Below, one piece after another: positions 16,368 to 28,232 of a stretch of DNA of 37,168 nt (positions are counted from its first letter, which is position 1; each line of letters opens with the position of its first letter). Position numbers and translations under genes: made by a program. The DNA is from Bacteroidetes bacterium SB0662_bin_6 (GTDB taxonomy: Bacteria > Bacteroidota > Rhodothermia > Rhodothermales > VXPQ01). The notes beneath the pieces are model-generated. The model was given only the letters and a program-made list of their open reading frames with translations. It did no database searches and was not told the DNA's origin. The stretch spans positions 1-37,168 of the forward strand of contig VXPQ01000021.1 in assembly GCA_009839485.1 (NCBI GenBank), in the 5' to 3' direction.

Positions 16368-19300
16368 TCACCCGCATCCGCTGGTGGAACCGCAGTTGGG
16401 GCACGAATAGCATGCGCCGCTGCGGACCGTGATGGATCCGCAGTTGGGACAGGCCGGACTATCCTCCTGATTACGGAAGGTAGTCTCGCTCGAAGTGGCT
16501 GAACGGCTCCCCTCCATGGCCTCCATGAACGCCTCCACCGTGCTGCCGACGAGCGCATCCAAAGGCTCCGGCGGCGCGGAAAGCTGCGTCTGCATCTGAG
16601 CCTGGGGCTGAAGCTGGAGTTGGGGCTGGGCTGCATTGCCGGAAGGAGATTCCCCTTCGCTGGAAAGACCATTGTCGACCTCCTCTTCCTCATGCTTATG
16701 CACCCGCATAAACTTCAGGGACAGGTACCTGAAGATGTAATCCATGATCGACTTCGTGATCGGGATCTCCTTGTTTTGCGTAAAGCCGTTCGGCTCGAAG
16801 CGCATGTGGCTGAACTTGTTGCAGAGATCAGCCAGCGGAACGCCATACTGCAACGCGATGGATATCGAGGTCGCAAACGCATCCATCAGCCCGGAAATCG
16901 TAGAGCCCTCCTTCGCCATCGTGATGAAGATTTCCCCGGGCATGCGCGAGTCGGGATACAGCCCGATATGCAGGTAGCCCTCGTGTCCGGCGATGGAGAA
17001 TTTGTGCGTCATGGAAGGACGTTCGTCGGGAAGCCGCTTGCGGATCGGCTGATACACGATCTTTTCGGTGATTTCCGGTTCGGACGTCGCCATCCCGTCG
17101 CCGGAGGATTCCTCATCCCATCCCTGGCTTTTTCTGGTATTGCCGCCCCTGGAGGTGGAGAGCGGCTGGCTCCGCTTGGAGTTTTCGCGGTAAATCGCAA
17201 GTGCTTTCAGGCCCAGTTCCCAGCCCTGTACATAGGCGTCGGCGATTTCCTCAACCGTTGCGCTTTCGGGCATATTGACCGTCTTGGAAATGGCGCCGGA
17301 GATAAAAGGCTGCACGGCCGCCATCATCCGGATGTGGCCCATGTGATGAATGGAACGCTCTCCCTTGAACGGTTTGAAAGCACAGTCGAACACGGGAAGA
17401 TGTTCTTCGCGCAGCGCCGGGGCGCCTTCAATGGTATCGTTCTCGTCGATATACCGAATGATCGCATCAATGTCCGGAGACGGGTAACCGAGGCGGGCGA
17501 GCGCTTCGGGCACGCTGCGATTTACGATCTTCATCATCCCGTCGCCCTGACCGGCCAGCAGTTTGTATTTGACCAGCGCGATATCCGGTTCGACGCCCGT
17601 CGTGTCGCAATCCATCATGAACCCGATCGTGCCGGTCGGCGCCAGTACCGTGGCTTGCGCATTCCGGTACCCGAACTGCTCGCCGGCAGCTATACAGTAC
17701 GTCCACGTTTCGCGGGCGGCCTCAAGGAGATAGTCCGGGCAACTGGTATGGATTTCATCGACCGCCGCGGCGTGCATGCGCATCACCTCGAGCATGGACG
17801 AACGGTTTGGGGCAAACCCCGCAAACGGTCCGATTTGGGGGTTGGCGGCAATCTCGGCGCTGCGGGCATACGCTTCGCCATGCTCGATCGCCATCAGCGC
17901 TCCGGCTACCGCGCGGCCTTCGTCGCTGTCATAGGGAAGCCCCATCGCCATCAGCAAGGCGCCGAGGTTGGCAAAGCCGAGCCCGAGAGGACGGTAGGCA
18001 TGGGAATTCTCGGCGATTGCACGCGATGGATACCCGGCGTTGTCTACCAGAATCTCCTGCGCCGTGATAAATATGCGCGTGGCCGCACGGTAGCGCTCGA
18101 CATCGAACGAACCGTCTTCCCGTTGAAACTTGCGAAGATTCAGGCTGGCCAGATTGCAGGCTGAATCATCGAGGAACATGTATTCCGAGCAGGGATTGCT
18201 CGAATTGATCGGCCCCGAATCCTTGCAGGTATGCCACCGCTGGATCGTATCCTCGTATTGCACGCCCGGATCGCCGCACACATGGGTGCCCTCGGATATT
18301 TTGCGGAGCACATCTTTTCCGGAAATGGTATCGATCACTTCATCGTCGAGCACGCCCCGAAGGTTGTACGGACTTCCGGACTGCACGGAATGCATGAGGT
18401 CATCGTCCACGCGCACGGACTGATTGACGTTCTGGAAGGCCACGCTGCCGTACGCCGGGCCATTGAATGAACCGTCGTAGCCTTCTTCGATCAGCGCCCA
18501 GGCCTTCCGTTCTTCTTCCTGCTTCGCCGCAACGAATTCGAGAATATCCGGATGCCAGGACTTCAGCGTCTGCATGATAGCTGCACGGCGCGTTTTGCCT
18601 CCGGACTTGATGGTTCCGCCGGTAGCATCCTGTACGCGCATGAAGCTGACAGGCCCGGACGGCTGCCCGCCGCCGGAAAGTTTTTCTCTGGAGGAACGCA
18701 GCTTCGACCAGTCCGCGCCTACCCCCGAACCGAATTTGAAAAGCCGGGCGCTTTCTCCCATCAACTGCCAGATATCGTCGATGGAATCTTCCACCGATAT
18801 GATGAAGCAGGCGGAAGCCTGCGGGCGCTGGTAGGGATCCACGGGGACCGCCCGGCCCTTGCTTTCATTCCATCCGGATATCTTCTTACCGCCCGAATCG
18901 CGGATCCCGTACTGCTGATACAGGCCGACATTGAACCATACCGGACTATTGAATGCGCCGTATTGATGCAGGCAAAGCCAGGTAAGTTCATCGTAGAAGC
19001 GTTCGCCGTCTTCCTTGGTGGCGAAATAATGCTGCTCCGTTCCCCAGTCGGCAATCGTGCGCGTGACGCGATGAATGAGCTGCCGGAGTGAGTTCTCGCG
19101 CCCCCCCTTCGAAGGATCCGTTCCCGATTGCTCTACATCCCCATAAAAATATTTGCTGGCCACCACGTTCGTCGCCAGAGGGCTCCAGGATTCCGGAAAA
19201 GCCACCTCTTTCTGCTCGAAGACCGCTTCGCCCTGCTGATTTCTGATAGCCGCATCGCGCCGATCCCATGCAAGGGTGTCGAAAGGCGAGCGCCCTTCCT

Positions 19301-19484
19301 CGGAAAAAACCCGTTCGATATGCAATCCCCCGGCAAACTGCTCGTGCGTGAACGCCGCGGCGTCCGTCTCGCGGGACCCCTCCACGGATTTCGCGTCATC
19401 AGCTCTCAATCCGGAGAACAGACCGGACGAGACTTCTTTGTCGGGAGTATCAGAGATAAATTTGTCCTGGGGGAATATGCTCAT
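16368..19484 (-). CDS. nrdJ: Adenosylcobalamin-dependent (class II) ribonucleotide reductase
   Basis: 1038 aa. It reduces ribonucleotides to deoxyribonucleotides using a cobalamin-derived radical and is oxygen-independent. Seen: FGSGVGADWSKLRS and GGGQPSGPVSFM near the active site, catalytic Asn-Cys-Glu in NPCSEYMFLDDSACNLASLNL, and APTGTIGFMMDCDTTGVEPD. The tail has a linker rich in Gln/Leu/Pro (about residues 955-970) and ends in two closely spaced CPNCG motifs (a zinc ribbon) plus terminal Cys residues that probably relay reducing equivalents from thioredoxin. The start is an ATG at 19484 with GGAAGGAG about 9 bp upstream. The enzyme needs vitamin B12, yet no cobalamin riboswitch was found upstream. 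Confidence 0.95.
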   Translation of the reverse strand: MSIFPQDKFISDTPDKEVSSGLFSGLRADDAKSVEGSRETDAAAFTHEQFAGGLHIERVFSEEGRSPFDTLAWDRRDAAIRNQQGEAVFEQKEVAFPESWSPLATNVVASKYFYGDVEQSGTDPSKGGRENSLRQLIHRVTRTIADWGTEQHYFATKEDGERFYDELTWLCLHQYGAFNSPVWFNVGLYQQYGIRDSGGKKISGWNESKGRAVPVDPYQRPQASACFIISVEDSIDDIWQLMGESARLFKFGSGVGADWSKLRSSREKLSGGGQPSGPVSFMRVQDATGGTIKSGGKTRRAAIMQTLKSWHPDILEFVAAKQEEERKAWALIEEGYDGSFNGPAYGSVAFQNVNQSVRVDDDLMHSVQSGSPYNLRGVLDDEVIDTISGKDVLRKISEGTHVCGDPGVQYEDTIQRWHTCKDSGPINSSNPCSEYMFLDDSACNLASLNLRKFQREDGSFDVERYRAATRIFITAQEILVDNAGYPSRAIAENSHAYRPLGLGFANLGALLMAMGLPYDSDEGRAVAGALMAIEHGEAYARSAEIAANPQIGPFAGFAPNRSSMLEVMRMHAAAVDEIHTSCPDYLLEAARETWTYCIAAGEQFGYRNAQATVLAPTGTIGFMMDCDTTGVEPDIALVKYKLLAGQGDGMMKIVNRSVPEALARLGYPSPDIDAIIRYIDENDTIEGAPALREEHLPVFDCAFKPFKGERSIHHMGHIRMMAAVQPFISGAISKTVNMPESATVEEIADAYVQGWELGLKALAIYRENSKRSQPLSTSRGGNTRKSQGWDEESSGDGMATSEPEITEKIVYQPIRKRLPDERPSMTHKFSIAGHEGYLHIGLYPDSRMPGEIFITMAKEGSTISGLMDAFATSISIALQYGVPLADLCNKFSHMRFEPNGFTQNKEIPITKSIMDYIFRYLSLKFMRVHKHEEEEVDNGLSSEGESPSGNAAQPQLQLQPQAQMQTQLSAPPEPLDALVGSTVEAFMEAMEGSRSATSSETTFRNQEDSPACPNCGSITVRSGACYSCPNCGSTSGCG

Positions 19485-20056
19485 AATCGCTGCTCCTTCC
19501 TTGACGTTATATGCCGCTATTCCTGACCGATTGGGAAAAACGGGCGAACAAATTGAAAATAACGGACTACCGTTTGCCCTTCCGGCCTAACCGTACAGAG
19601 GCTAAAGCCGGAGTGTATAATAACGAAGTTATAAAACCGTTATGCAAGTACAAATCCAAGGTTTTTTTATCGACAGGACGGATTTCACAATTCCCCGTAA
19701 TCCACACCGTTATCCACAGAGGTGCAAACCAGAGAAGCACCGCACCGAATCCCGGACGCCACGCGATCTTAATTCCGTTATTGCATAAATATTCTCTTGC
19801 TCACATCCTGCACACAGGTTATCCACCATTTTTTTAACGAGCCGGGAACGCACCGTACAAGGTTATATTTGCAATAACGGTTATACATTCCATAAAGAAA
19901 ACAGGCTCCGGCCCCATTCCGCACCCGGGATGAAAGAATGAATCCAAAGGCGCGATCAGTCGTTTTACTGCGGGCGCGATGCGCCCCTGCCATCGCGGCG
20001 GACAACGTGGAGATCCACAGAGCATTACTCGTTATATAAAATCAACGGCAGGTATA
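19485..20056. promoter_or_regulatory. nrdJ upstream region with DnaA-box-like sites and a repeated TGCAATAACGG motif
   Basis: 572 bp without a credible gene. A perfect DnaA box TTATCCACA lies at 19710-19718, with one-mismatch forms at 19698-19706 (TAATCCACA) and 19819-19827 (TTATCCACC), all in the same orientation. TGCAATAACGG occurs at 19870-19880 (plus), as its exact complement at 19775-19785, and as the one-base-shorter TGCATAACGG on the minus strand at 19646-19637. A small perfect hairpin is at 19972-19986 (GGGCGC, GAT, GCGCCC). AT-rich runs occur at 19615-19675. The combination suggests control of nrdJ, and possibly of the plus-strand gene at 20057, by DnaA and an unidentified regulator. 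There is no dnaA gene nearby. Confidence 0.5.
19617..19647 (-). promoter_or_regulatory. Candidate nrdJ promoter
   Basis: On the minus strand TTGCAT (19647-19642) is followed by 19 nt and TATTAT (19622-19617). Spacing of 19 is long for classical sigma-70 but acceptable for the Bacteroidota -33/-7 pattern. It would leave a leader of about 125 nt before the ATG at 19484. The -35 side overlaps the TGCATAACGG motif copy at 19646-19637, which would let a bound protein block or assist the polymerase. Confidence 0.35.
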
Positions 20057-20464
20057 ATGTTGCAGGAAAGCGTCGAGCGCAGCGCCTATCCTCATCCTGA
20101 GGAATTCGAGGTCATGCGCCCGGAGTACTCTGAAATAGAAGACGACTACTTTCGAGCCGTCATCACCGTCTCGCCGTTTCGCGTCACGGGCGAGAGCCGT
20201 ACGGAGGCCGGCGCACGTCGGGCTGCGCTCTACGAAGCGGAAAAAACCTATCGTTCCTACCACCCGTCCTACAGGGTGCGCAATCCTTATCCGGATACCT
20301 TCTCGGATCGCGAAGGCACCAGATGGTCACGCGTCCCGGCGTCAAAGCGCGACAAAATGGGAGACTACCTCTTCGTGGACGCGAGCGACGAAGAAGACTA
20401 CGCGGATATCGAGTCCATGCTGACCTGGGACGTACGTCCGAACGATGTCAATCCGGCCGATTGA
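20057..20464 (+). CDS. Hypothetical 135-aa protein
   Basis: Starts at the ATG at 20057, a few bases after GGCAGG. The protein is acidic and charged, with many Tyr and Arg and no signal peptide or membrane segment. A central stretch (FRVTGESRTEAGARRAALYEAEKTY, about residues 42-66) has a beta-strand followed by an Ala-rich helix, loosely like the second half of a double-stranded-RNA-binding fold, but this is too weak for a call. The C-terminus is strongly acidic (DASDEEDYADIESM). I recognise no family. It is divergent from nrdJ, sharing its 572-bp regulatory region, and lies 93 bp upstream of a membrane-protein gene on the same strand. Confidence 0.6.
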   Translation: MLQESVERSAYPHPEEFEVMRPEYSEIEDDYFRAVITVSPFRVTGESRTEAGARRAALYEAEKTYRSYHPSYRVRNPYPDTFSDREGTRWSRVPASKRDKMGDYLFVDASDEEDYADIESMLTWDVRPNDVNPAD

Positions 20465-26455: not shown

Positions 26456-26505
26456 GGTTATCATGTGGGCAGAATGTGTTCGCTGCATTTCAAGGGGAGG
26501 ATAGC

Positions 26506-27645
26506 ATGGAAATGACTTCGAGGCTGCTATGCGGTTCCGCTCAGTCTATGGACAAAGTTCCGGATGCATCGGTTGACCTGATCGTAACCTCGCCGCCCTA
26601 TCCGATGGTCGCCATGTGGGACGATGTATTCGTTTCGCAGGATGGCCGTATCGGTGATCGGTTAGCCCGCGGAGAGGGTCGGGCCGCTTTCGACCTCATG
26701 CATCAACTCCTTGATACGGCCTGGGAGGAATGCAGCCGGGTCCTGAAACCGGGCGGTCTTGCCTGCATCAATATTGGCGATGCGACCCGAACTCTGGACG
26801 GCGATTTTCAGCTGTACTCCAATCACTCCCGAATACTTGGCTTTTTCCTTGGACACGGATTTGCAGCACTGCCCGACATACTCTGGCGCAAGCAAACAAA
26901 CGCCCCAAACAAGTTCATGGGGTCCGGGATGTTACCCGTAGGGGCGTACGTGACCTACGAACACGAATACATTCTCGTCCTTCGAAAGGGAAGGCGCAGA
27001 AGGTTTGATAAAGAGGCAGAGAAAGATCGCCGTCGGGAAAGCGCCTTCTTTTGGGAAGAGCGTAATGTCTGGTTTTCCGATATGTGGTTTGACATAAAGG
27101 GGATCGACCAACGTCTCGTCAACACCGCGGCTCGGGAGCGCAGCGGCGCATTCCCGTTCGAGTTGGCCTACCGGCTCATTTGTATGTTTTCCATCAAGGG
27201 GGATACGGTGCTGGATCCATTTGCAGGCACCGGGACCACATTGGTTGCGGCGCTGGCTTCAGGAAGAAATTCGCTGGGCATTGAGATCGACGATACATTA
27301 CTGCCTGTCGCGCGGACTTTCATGGAGGCTGCGCCGCGCATCGCCGGCGAATACAATCAACGCCGGTTGGTCCGGCATCAAAACTGGGTTCGTACGCGCA
27401 CGGCAGAGCACGGCCCGCTGAAATACGCGAACCGCCATTACGGTTTTCCGGTGATGACCGCACAAGAACAGCACCTGTTACTGGATGACATCACAGGTAT
27501 AGGGATCGTCCCTGAAAAAGAGGGTGTGACGGTCTGGGCGCAATATGGAGAAGAGGCCCGGTCTGGCGCGGCATCCTGGTTAGCGAACGCAGCGAAAAAG
27601 CCGCCTATAAGAAAGCAAAACACCCAGGTTCAGTTACAACTTTAG
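26506..27645 (+). CDS. DNA methyltransferase, beta-class (probably N4-cytosine), CTAG-type R-M system
   Basis: 379 aa. It transfers a methyl group from S-adenosylmethionine to a base in a specific DNA site. Motif IV TSPPY is at residues 28-32, followed by VLKPGG (motif V-VI region, about 79-84), and the SAM-binding motif I DPFAGTGTT is at 237-245, with SLGIEID after it. This order (IV before I) is the beta class. TSPPY is typical of N4-cytosine enzymes. ATG at 26506 has a strong ribosome-binding site (AAGGGGAGG, about 26492-26500); an upstream start at 26476 is unlikely. It is convergent with the MjaI-type endonuclease gene, 5 bp apart, and so is its protective partner by context. Specificity for CTAG is inferred from the endonuclease family. 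Confidence 0.88.
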   Translation: MEMTSRLLCGSAQSMDKVPDASVDLIVTSPPYPMVAMWDDVFVSQDGRIGDRLARGEGRAAFDLMHQLLDTAWEECSRVLKPGGLACINIGDATRTLDGDFQLYSNHSRILGFFLGHGFAALPDILWRKQTNAPNKFMGSGMLPVGAYVTYEHEYILVLRKGRRRRFDKEAEKDRRRESAFFWEERNVWFSDMWFDIKGIDQRLVNTAARERSGAFPFELAYRLICMFSIKGDTVLDPFAGTGTTLVAALASGRNSLGIEIDDTLLPVARTFMEAAPRIAGEYNQRRLVRHQNWVRTRTAEHGPLKYANRHYGFPVMTAQEQHLLLDDITGIGIVPEKEGVTVWAQYGEEARSGAASWLANAAKKPPIRKQNTQVQLQL

Positions 27646-27650
27646 ATGAG

Positions 27651-28232
27651 TCAAAAATCGAACGAGACAGTAATTCCACTCTTTTTCTTTTCATAAAGTA
27701 TCAATTCGCCCTGTATCTCTTCAGGCAGCATATCCTTGACCGCATAGGTTGACGGTTTAACGGAAACCGCCATCGTGCCTATGAAACCATCGATCCCTTG
27801 CGATTCCTCATCGGGTGTTGCCATCCGGTAATCGACCCCCTTGCGTTCTGCAATTCTTGCCAAAATAGCTTCCTGAAAGCACAGACCGATAAAGGTTTTT
27901 ACCAACACAAGATCCTCGACCCATTCACGCACCATGCTTTTGTCGATCTCCTGCATAGCTGCCCGCAACTTCTCTACCATCTCGTAGATTCGATCCGTCG
28001 CATTATCCAGCGCTTCGGGCTTTTGCGTTCTGTACCAGGCTTCCCATTCCTCATAGCTTTTCCCGCCAAATTCCTGAAACAATTCGGTCATCTGGCCAAC
28101 AATCCGCGGGCGTGTCCCTTGGGCATTCTGGTTGGCCAGGTTTATAATCTGGGATGTGTACTTAGGAAAAGCATGCTGTTTCTGCGATACAGCCTCGGCA
28201 AGTTCCGCATTTTTAATCTTGAATGTGGGCAT
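27651..28232 (-). CDS. MjaI-family type II restriction endonuclease
   Basis: 193 aa. It resembles the MjaI endonuclease family (Methanocaldococcus CTAG-cutting enzyme). Typical segments are FPKYTSQIINLANQNAQGTR (20-41), SYEEWEAWY, VREWVEDLVLVKTFIGLCFQEAIL and ATPDEESQGIDGFIG...VSVKP. Glu121, Asp148 and Lys159 (within GIDGF ... VSVKPSTY) form a plausible PD-(D/E)xK nuclease core. Cleavage of unmethylated CTAG is predicted from family, not shown. The gene looks more AT-rich than its neighbours and encodes many Lys/Gln, in keeping with horizontal transfer. ATG at 28232; no clear ribosome-binding site. The upstream neighbour on this strand is ruvA, 71 bp away. Confidence 0.85.
   Translation of the reverse strand: MPTFKIKNAELAEAVSQKQHAFPKYTSQIINLANQNAQGTRPRIVGQMTELFQEFGGKSYEEWEAWYRTQKPEALDNATDRIYEMVEKLRAAMQEIDKSMVREWVEDLVLVKTFIGLCFQEAILARIAERKGVDYRMATPDEESQGIDGFIGTMAVSVKPSTYAVKDMLPEEIQGELILYEKKKSGITVSFDF

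Follow-up and report, generated by a model that had tools for sequence, protein, structure and literature searches.

A repeated word before nrdJ in Rhodothermales, shared with smc and the replication terminus, and a catalytically inactive Xer paralogue as its likely reader

The region upstream of nrdJ, the gene for a class II ribonucleotide reductase, in an uncultured genus of Rhodothermales is best explained as a compound operator-promoter. In this region, copies of a short asymmetric word, one of them on the likely -35 element, are interleaved with DnaA boxes. The same word is found at the promoter of smc, at that of a gene for a degenerate Xer-family protein (termed pseudo-Xer here), and on both sides of the replication terminus in other families of the order. 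The reading preferred here, to which a probability of roughly 0.6 is given, is that pseudo-Xer binds the word. It would then repress nrdJ, smc and its own gene in the manner of MrpR and would also mark the terminus, and DnaA would act on nrdJ as well.

The window, that is, the whole stretch of DNA that was analysed, is contig C21 of 37,168 bp, within a 69-contig draft genome of 2.92 Mb. The gap between nrdJ and a divergent ORF at 20057 is 572 bp long. The features of the region are as follows.

16368..19484, minus strand: nrdJ, adenosylcobalamin-dependent class II ribonucleotide reductase, 1038 aa (Pfam PF02867, PF08471, PF12637; relatives 70-98% identical)
19558..19565, plus strand: word copy D, AATAACGG, within the 5' untranslated region of nrdJ (from the sequence; TCCGTTATT kept in 6/6 genus genomes)
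19617..19622, minus strand: likely nrdJ -10, TATTAT (TTATTRTA kept in 6/6 genus genomes; spacing as at smc)
19637..19647, minus strand: word copy C, TTGCATAACGG, which overlaps the likely -35 of nrdJ (identical in 6/6 genus genomes; smc has the same module)
19667..19675, plus strand: weak DnaA-like box TTATCGACA, one mismatch (lost in G001 and G002)
19679..19693, minus strand: conserved block GAATTGTGAAATCCG (nearly unchanged in 6 genus genomes)
19698..19706, plus strand: DnaA-like box TAATCCACA, one mismatch
19710..19718, plus strand: perfect DnaA box TTATCCACA (compare the order-wide TGTGGAWAA boxes)
19775..19785, minus strand: word copy B, exact TGCAATAACGG (position conserved)
19819..19827, plus strand: DnaA-like box TTATCCACC, one mismatch, between copies A and B (a box recurs here across the order; degraded in G003)
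19870..19880, plus strand: word copy A, exact TGCAATAACGG (in other families doubled, with a spacing of 23 bp)
20057..20464, plus strand: divergent small ORF, 135 aa, sharing the intergenic region with nrdJ (no Pfam match; start region conserved in the genus)

The first-pass annotation had listed three copies of the word, one on the likely nrdJ -35, and these were recovered at 19870-19880, 19775-19785 and 19637-19647; the fourth copy, at 19558-19565, was not in its list. The cluster of DnaA boxes that it had described before nrdJ was also borne out, as one perfect and three one-mismatch boxes, all on the plus strand, within 161 bp. The block GAATTGTGAAATCCG at 19679-19693 (minus strand) matches neither the word nor a DnaA box. 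The nrdJ product gave no match to the ATP-cone in Pfam. Two other ideas about the region were rejected. Copy D was considered as part of a hairpin, but G001 and G002 keep the word and not the hairpin half. A riboswitch before nrdJ was likewise dismissed, as only the 16S rRNA matches Rfam in the window at gathering thresholds.

Both exact copies of TGCAATAACGG in the window fall in the nrdJ upstream region, and with up to two mismatches allowed the word is not enriched inside the window (5 matches vs 8.76 expected). A genome-wide search for TGCAATAACGG, one of the checks suggested earlier, gave counts above random. There are 8 copies in the window genome (G000) vs 3 of the reversed pattern, and 45 vs 8 over the six genus genomes (8, 9, 8, 5, 6 and 9 copies in G000, G001, G002, G005, G003 and G004, with 3, 1, 1, 2, 1 and 0 reversed). 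An extended word, TGCAATAACGGAWATTNAAA, was tried and not retained; with up to three mismatches it gave 7 matches in G001 and 10 in G002, and only 2-5 in each of the other four.

Alignment of the six genus genomes, read on the nrdJ strand, gives a fixed order of elements: copy A (inverted), the GTGGATAAC box, copy B, GAATTGTGAAATCCG, copy C on the -35, the TTATTRTA -10 and copy D. All copies of the word hold their position across the genus, the contig of G005 starting after A. Copy C on the -35 reads CTTGCATAACGG and is identical in all six genomes. In G004, copy B is cut down to CAATAACGG and copy A takes the form TTACAATAACGG; in G002 and G003, copy B is CGCAATAACGG. The exact DnaA boxes are less well preserved than the word in this alignment: the perfect box TTATCCACA of the window reads TGTGGAAA in G004 and G005 and is gone in G001 and G002, and the box between A and B reads GCGAATAAC in G003.

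Beyond the genus, a comparison was made of 56 genomes that have a tblastn match and 450 bp or more of upstream sequence (one locus per genome, G005 excluded), and it was observed that the layout A, A', box, B, box, C recurs across the order with near-constant spacing. As 29 of the candidate loci of this comparison had been picked by the doublet CCGTTATT-N15-CCGTTATT, the counts were repeated on 35 genomes chosen regardless of motif, namely those of 40 relatives with a usable upstream region. The doublet itself is present in 29 of the 114 order genomes, once in each, with none for the reversed control; 28 of its 29 loci are at nrdJ and the remaining one runs into a contig edge. In the 35 unselected genomes, CAATAACGG in either direction precedes nrdJ in 26, with 48 copies vs 0.24 in dinucleotide shuffles, the exact form not being found in the other 9. 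The motif conservation in relatives that had been proposed as a check is thus seen both in the genus and in the order. Similarly, TTGCAWAACGG precedes nrdJ in 14 of the 35 genomes (14 copies vs 0.00 in shuffles), and the core ATAACGG in 34 (111 copies vs 3.30). In nine genomes (G007, G012, G014, G015, G016, G021, G027, G031 and G035), the matches to NrdJ are split inside single open frames of 1371-1856 aa, which suggests inteins, judging from the frames.

The first-pass annotation saw no match of the repeated motif to the NrdR box, and this judgement is upheld at the level of the protein. NrdR (TIGR00244) was found in none of the 40 relatives, while 9 of 14 control genomes were positive; with the gene missing from 40/40 relatives, NrdR control of nrdJ was ruled out. 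The word also does not fit what we take to be the NrdR box. The arrangement resembles an NrdR regulon in that operators are repeated before a ribonucleotide reductase gene, but here NrdR is missing in 40/40 relatives and the word is not palindromic.

The promoter element of nrdJ is shared with another gene. The module TTGCAWAACGG-N11-15-TTWATT is present in 46 of the 114 order genomes, mostly twice per genome, and absent in 68, with one reversed-control match overall. Among 30 module loci tested, 13 lie upstream of nrdJ and 15 upstream of smc, with L246 at a contig edge and L248 elsewhere. At 13 of the 15 smc loci, CAATAACGG stands 72-129 bp upstream of the -35 word copy, usually at 105-113 bp, and the smc of the window genome itself carries both elements. 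Outside the order, 5 of 130 genomes of the class match the module, none of them at nrdJ or smc. Conserved copies of TGCAATAACGG were also noted upstream of a PBP1A-like gene in 3/6 genus genomes (L005, L051, L052) and between thyA-like and 2-oxoacid oxidoreductase-like genes in 4/6 (L004, L047, L055, L061), the genes being named by eye.

A third gene lies recurrently next to word sites, at L006 in the window genome and at L277 and L290 in two other families. Its product, pseudo-Xer, belongs to the Xer family (TIGR02224, E 6.7e-38, far under the equivalog cut-off; XerD 1a0p, E 1.7e-13). When aligned to XerD, it has Ser in place of catalytic Arg I and Thr in place of Arg II. Both arginines are replaced, by Ser and Thr, in 30/30 copies. 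All 30 retain Lys and the two His, and 29 retain Tyr. None of another 20 copies, drawn from more diverged families or from other ones, has the first Arg, and 2 have the second; the Tyr is lost in family f11, in most of f15 and in 3/4 f13 copies. Judged by these residues, pseudo-Xer is catalytically dead. A profile of the protein finds one match each in 104 of the 114 order genomes and matches 2 of 130 other genomes of the class.

The pseudo-Xer gene carries the word at its own promoter. CCGTTATTG reads toward the gene from 64-184 bp upstream in 27/30 cases, falling on a TTGACA-like -35 in many of them; the three misses all belong to family f10. In f10 and f13, the CCGTTAT core is at the start region in 7/7 copies examined. 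The word is missing from the pseudo-Xer promoter in f4 (2/2), f15 (10/10) and f21 (2/2), and in f4 words are still present at nrdJ despite this. In f15, 14 of the 15 genomes have a strongly diverged pseudo-Xer (182-334 bits) and lack the nrdJ/smc module; G052, the sole f15 genome with a normal pseudo-Xer (482 bits), has the module at smc. A monomer of a tyrosine recombinase, as in Xer/dif, recognises one asymmetric arm, about 11-12 bp long. Because pseudo-Xer is the only member of a sequence-specific DNA-binding family among the three targets, has the word on its own promoter and would suit an asymmetric word of the size of one arm, it is most likely the reader of the word. The link between the protein and the word rests on the promoter site, on co-occurrence and on the size of the site.

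In families other than that of the window, the word takes the form TTGCAATAACGG and flanks the replication terminus as a polar mark. In 8 genomes from five other families of the order, the CAATAACGG sites switch strand once, at a single place, and copies at the terminus extend to TTGCAATAACGG. For this count, the nrdJ, smc and pseudo-Xer promoter sites were removed first, the flip itself was taken as the terminus position, only contig C1 was used for the multi-contig genomes G017, G018, G021, G028 and G036, and G003 and G004 were not included. There are 11-26 such non-promoter sites per genome, and 145 of the 148 agree with the chromosome arm, the three that disagree being all far from the flip. 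When two break points are left free, 148/148 agree, the two-block agreement having a chance of about 0.06 each for G018 and G028 taken alone. The sites are also clustered: 94 of the 148 are no more than 5% of the genome away from the flip, in either direction, vs 14.8 expected. GC skew goes from plus to minus at the flip in G007, G012 and G016. In G003, which belongs to the genus of the window, the 9-mer is not enriched (26 vs 24 reversed), and besides the nrdJ and pseudo-Xer promoters there are only four 11-mer sites, all in the expected direction.

An intact Xer gene is present at the flip centre in G012, G016, G017, G021 and G036. Upstream of it, a dif-like NGATAA-N6-TTATCN site was seen in G012, G016, G017 and G036, and G021 has a similar site 4.7 kb from its terminus Xer. 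In G003, the same Xer gene and dif-like site are found at 2.04 Mb, within the skew-change zone (L409, about 2041859); the sites lying before the intact terminus Xer gene are L409 (G003), L303, L305, L322 and L323. The GATAA-N6-TTATC site came from reading upstream of the terminal Xer gene; a scan of the terminus centres with the canonical dif consensus, as we take it to be, gave 17/25 positions at best and nothing convincing. The terminus Xer and its dif-like site are possibly a single-recombinase dimer-resolution system. Beside a conserved rhomboid-like gene, two CAATAACGG copies were noted 54-55 bp apart in two families (L273/L275 in G012 and L286/L288 in G016). The nrdJ region was also considered as oriC, which is not supported: the GC skew of the window has no clear turn there, and in G012, G016 and G036 the distance from nrdJ to the point opposite the flip is about 40, 340 and 1150 kb.

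As regards DnaA, 4 of the 6 box matches of the window sit within the 161 bp, with 4.25 expected over 37,168 bp. In the unselected genomes, TGTGGAWAA precedes nrdJ in 19/35 (28 boxes vs 0.26 in dinucleotide shuffles) and the forward box is not present in 16/35. Since the boxes are conserved in the order far above chance, a DnaA link for the class II reductase can with good reason be inferred from them. DnaA boxes upstream of nrdAB and an established DnaA control of nrdAB have been described in E. coli (available text of PMC8203912), and by analogy the boxes next to copies A, B and C point to a second regulatory input. The likeness lies in DnaA boxes upstream of a ribonucleotide reductase operon; the differences are that here the enzyme is of class II and of another phylum, that the action of DnaA is predicted from the boxes, and that the boxes interleave with a second word common to smc and the terminus. 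The first-pass annotation had put such a DnaA-reductase link at the centre. The boxes of that proposal stood, being conserved across the order, but the word did not turn out to be private to nrdJ; as it is common to smc, pseudo-Xer and the terminus, the main reading shifts from a DnaA-controlled reductase to a regulator with chromosome-wide sites. The window genome has two full DnaA homologues of 486 and 420 aa (C60:28050-28535, minus strand, and C23:28053-28535, plus strand; L011 and L012). One dnaA directly precedes dnaN, and DnaA boxes TTATCCACC and TTATCCACA lie upstream of the other. The word was looked for at both dnaA genes and none was found nearby, save one AATAACGG within dnaN.

Under the preferred reading, pseudo-Xer would bind the word as a monomer, the site being asymmetric, about 12 bp and of the size of a Xer arm. 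At nrdJ, smc and its own gene, the protein would cover the promoter (at the -35 or, in two families, at the start region) and repress it; it is this overlap of the word with -35 or start regions that suggests repression. The distal nrdJ copies A, A' and B may stabilise repression, perhaps via looping, and DnaA on the adjacent boxes would tune nrdJ, much as it does with nrdAB of E. coli. Pseudo-Xer would be held at the terminus by the oriented sites in a direction-dependent manner; there it would most likely stop or unload a machine that moves from the origin toward the terminus (SMC, the fork or FtsK). Since a mere sink needs no polarity, a directional role of the word at the terminus is likely, going by the orientation of its sites, and SMC is the favoured partner because the smc promoter has the same word. 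The terminus sites could also serve as a reservoir that links the completion of replication to the expression of nrdJ and smc. Several results weigh against this reading: the wordless pseudo-Xer promoters of f4, f15 and f21, with words at nrdJ in f4 all the same; the genomes whose nrdJ has no exact CAATAACGG (9/35) or no forward TGTGGAWAA (16/35); the 68 order genomes without the promoter module; and the unenriched 9-mer in G003.

A partial precedent for such a protein is known. In prophage SPbeta of B. subtilis, MrpR is a dead tyrosine recombinase that acts as the repressor of a repeated element (available text of PMC10516654). In both cases a tyrosine-recombinase fold devoid of catalysis is turned into a DNA-binding repressor, the repressor role of pseudo-Xer being predicted (for MrpR, the same portion of PMC10516654). 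The two differ in that pseudo-Xer is chromosomal, single-copy and spread over the whole order, with nrdJ and smc as promoter targets and with terminus sites. A comparison of pseudo-Xer with the MrpR structure 8A0A gave no sequence match to E 0.001.

The word might instead be read by the active terminus Xer as half-dif sites, with the promoter effects being secondary. The intact Xer at the centre of the polar array in five genomes, as well as in G003, and the dif-like site upstream of it in five genomes, or 4.7 kb off in G021, are in keeping with this, and in G017 one dif-like arm, TTGCGATAACAG, differs from TTGCAATAACGG by 2 letters. There is also a precedent, as XerD sites of B. subtilis that unload SMC at the terminus are on record (cited in the available text of PMC12322038 and PMC8242196). 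This precedent has a Xer-family protein, the terminus and SMC in common with Rhodothermales, but here the candidate is a dead paralogue and the word also stands at promoters. Moreover, the dif-like arms are GATAA rather than AATAACGG, and the dif-like site lies before the terminal Xer gene whereas the word lies before that of pseudo-Xer. A reading of the word by the active Xer is considered unlikely. It is clearly improbable, too, that the word serves as Ter sites at which a Tus-like terminator protein arrests forks, the promoter copies being for gene control. Tus-Ter sites are oriented on both arms and denser toward the terminus (available text of PMC8707476 and PMC8347550), and the word sites of the 8 genomes from families other than that of the window are likewise arm-oriented and terminus-clustered; their polarity and clustering, at 11-26 non-promoter sites per genome, would fit a fork trap. 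However, no candidate protein besides pseudo-Xer emerged, and at both nrdJ and smc, copy C is part of the promoter, at a fixed spacing.

KOPS and AIMS are also oriented sites on both arms whose density goes up near the terminus, with a floor of 96 copies for the AIMS octamer (available text of PMC5993296). A KOPS-like FtsK loading sequence would account for the origin-to-terminus polarity and for a density that climbs toward the dif-like site, but it gives no reason for the promoter copies at nrdJ, smc and the DNA-binding gene. The 11-26 non-promoter copies of the word per genome are also far below the AIMS floor of at least 96 (same portion of PMC5993296), and this explanation is the hardest to credit. 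From Tus-Ter, KOPS and AIMS alike, the word differs in being a 12-mer of about a dozen to two dozen copies with additional copies at promoters, which those marks are not known to have. Lastly, nrdJ might have a promoter controlled by DnaA alone, the other word being a local accessory site. The conservation of the boxes in 19/35 genomes (28 vs 0.26 expected) and the established DnaA control of nrdAB in E. coli (available text of PMC8203912) are on its side, but a local site would hardly be common to smc and pseudo-Xer and polar at the terminus, which leaves this explanation very improbable.

The preferred reading, i.e. binding of the word by pseudo-Xer, may be extended to the order as a whole. 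There, NrdR would have been replaced by a domesticated dead Xer, the polar 12-bp word being at once the operator of nrdJ, smc and the pseudo-Xer gene and a directional mark of the terminus; this wider proposal is put forward tentatively, at somewhat less than even odds. The word may tie nucleotide supply to the chromosome cycle. If so, the completion of replication and SMC traffic would be physically coupled to deoxynucleotide supply, with DnaA as the origin-side input at nrdJ; a tyrosine recombinase turned regulator would be a chromosomal core gene; and the terminus would have a polar mark other than the Tus, RTP and KOPS systems. Both the setting of reductase levels in the absence of NrdR and the signalling of the end of replication to gene expression become testable here, through a single short word, a candidate protein and three target promoters. 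Cultured members of the order include Rhodothermus and Salinibacter. Nothing was found in the open-access literature on the word or the pseudo-Xer protein in Rhodothermales, nor was a counterpart found there for their combination of features.

Two minor observations concern the rest of the window. Its start (1-537) falls inside a 16S rRNA gene on the minus strand. At 26476-28232, an N6_N4_Mtase DNA methylase stands beside a MjaI-type restriction endonuclease, and the restriction-modification pair looks complete.
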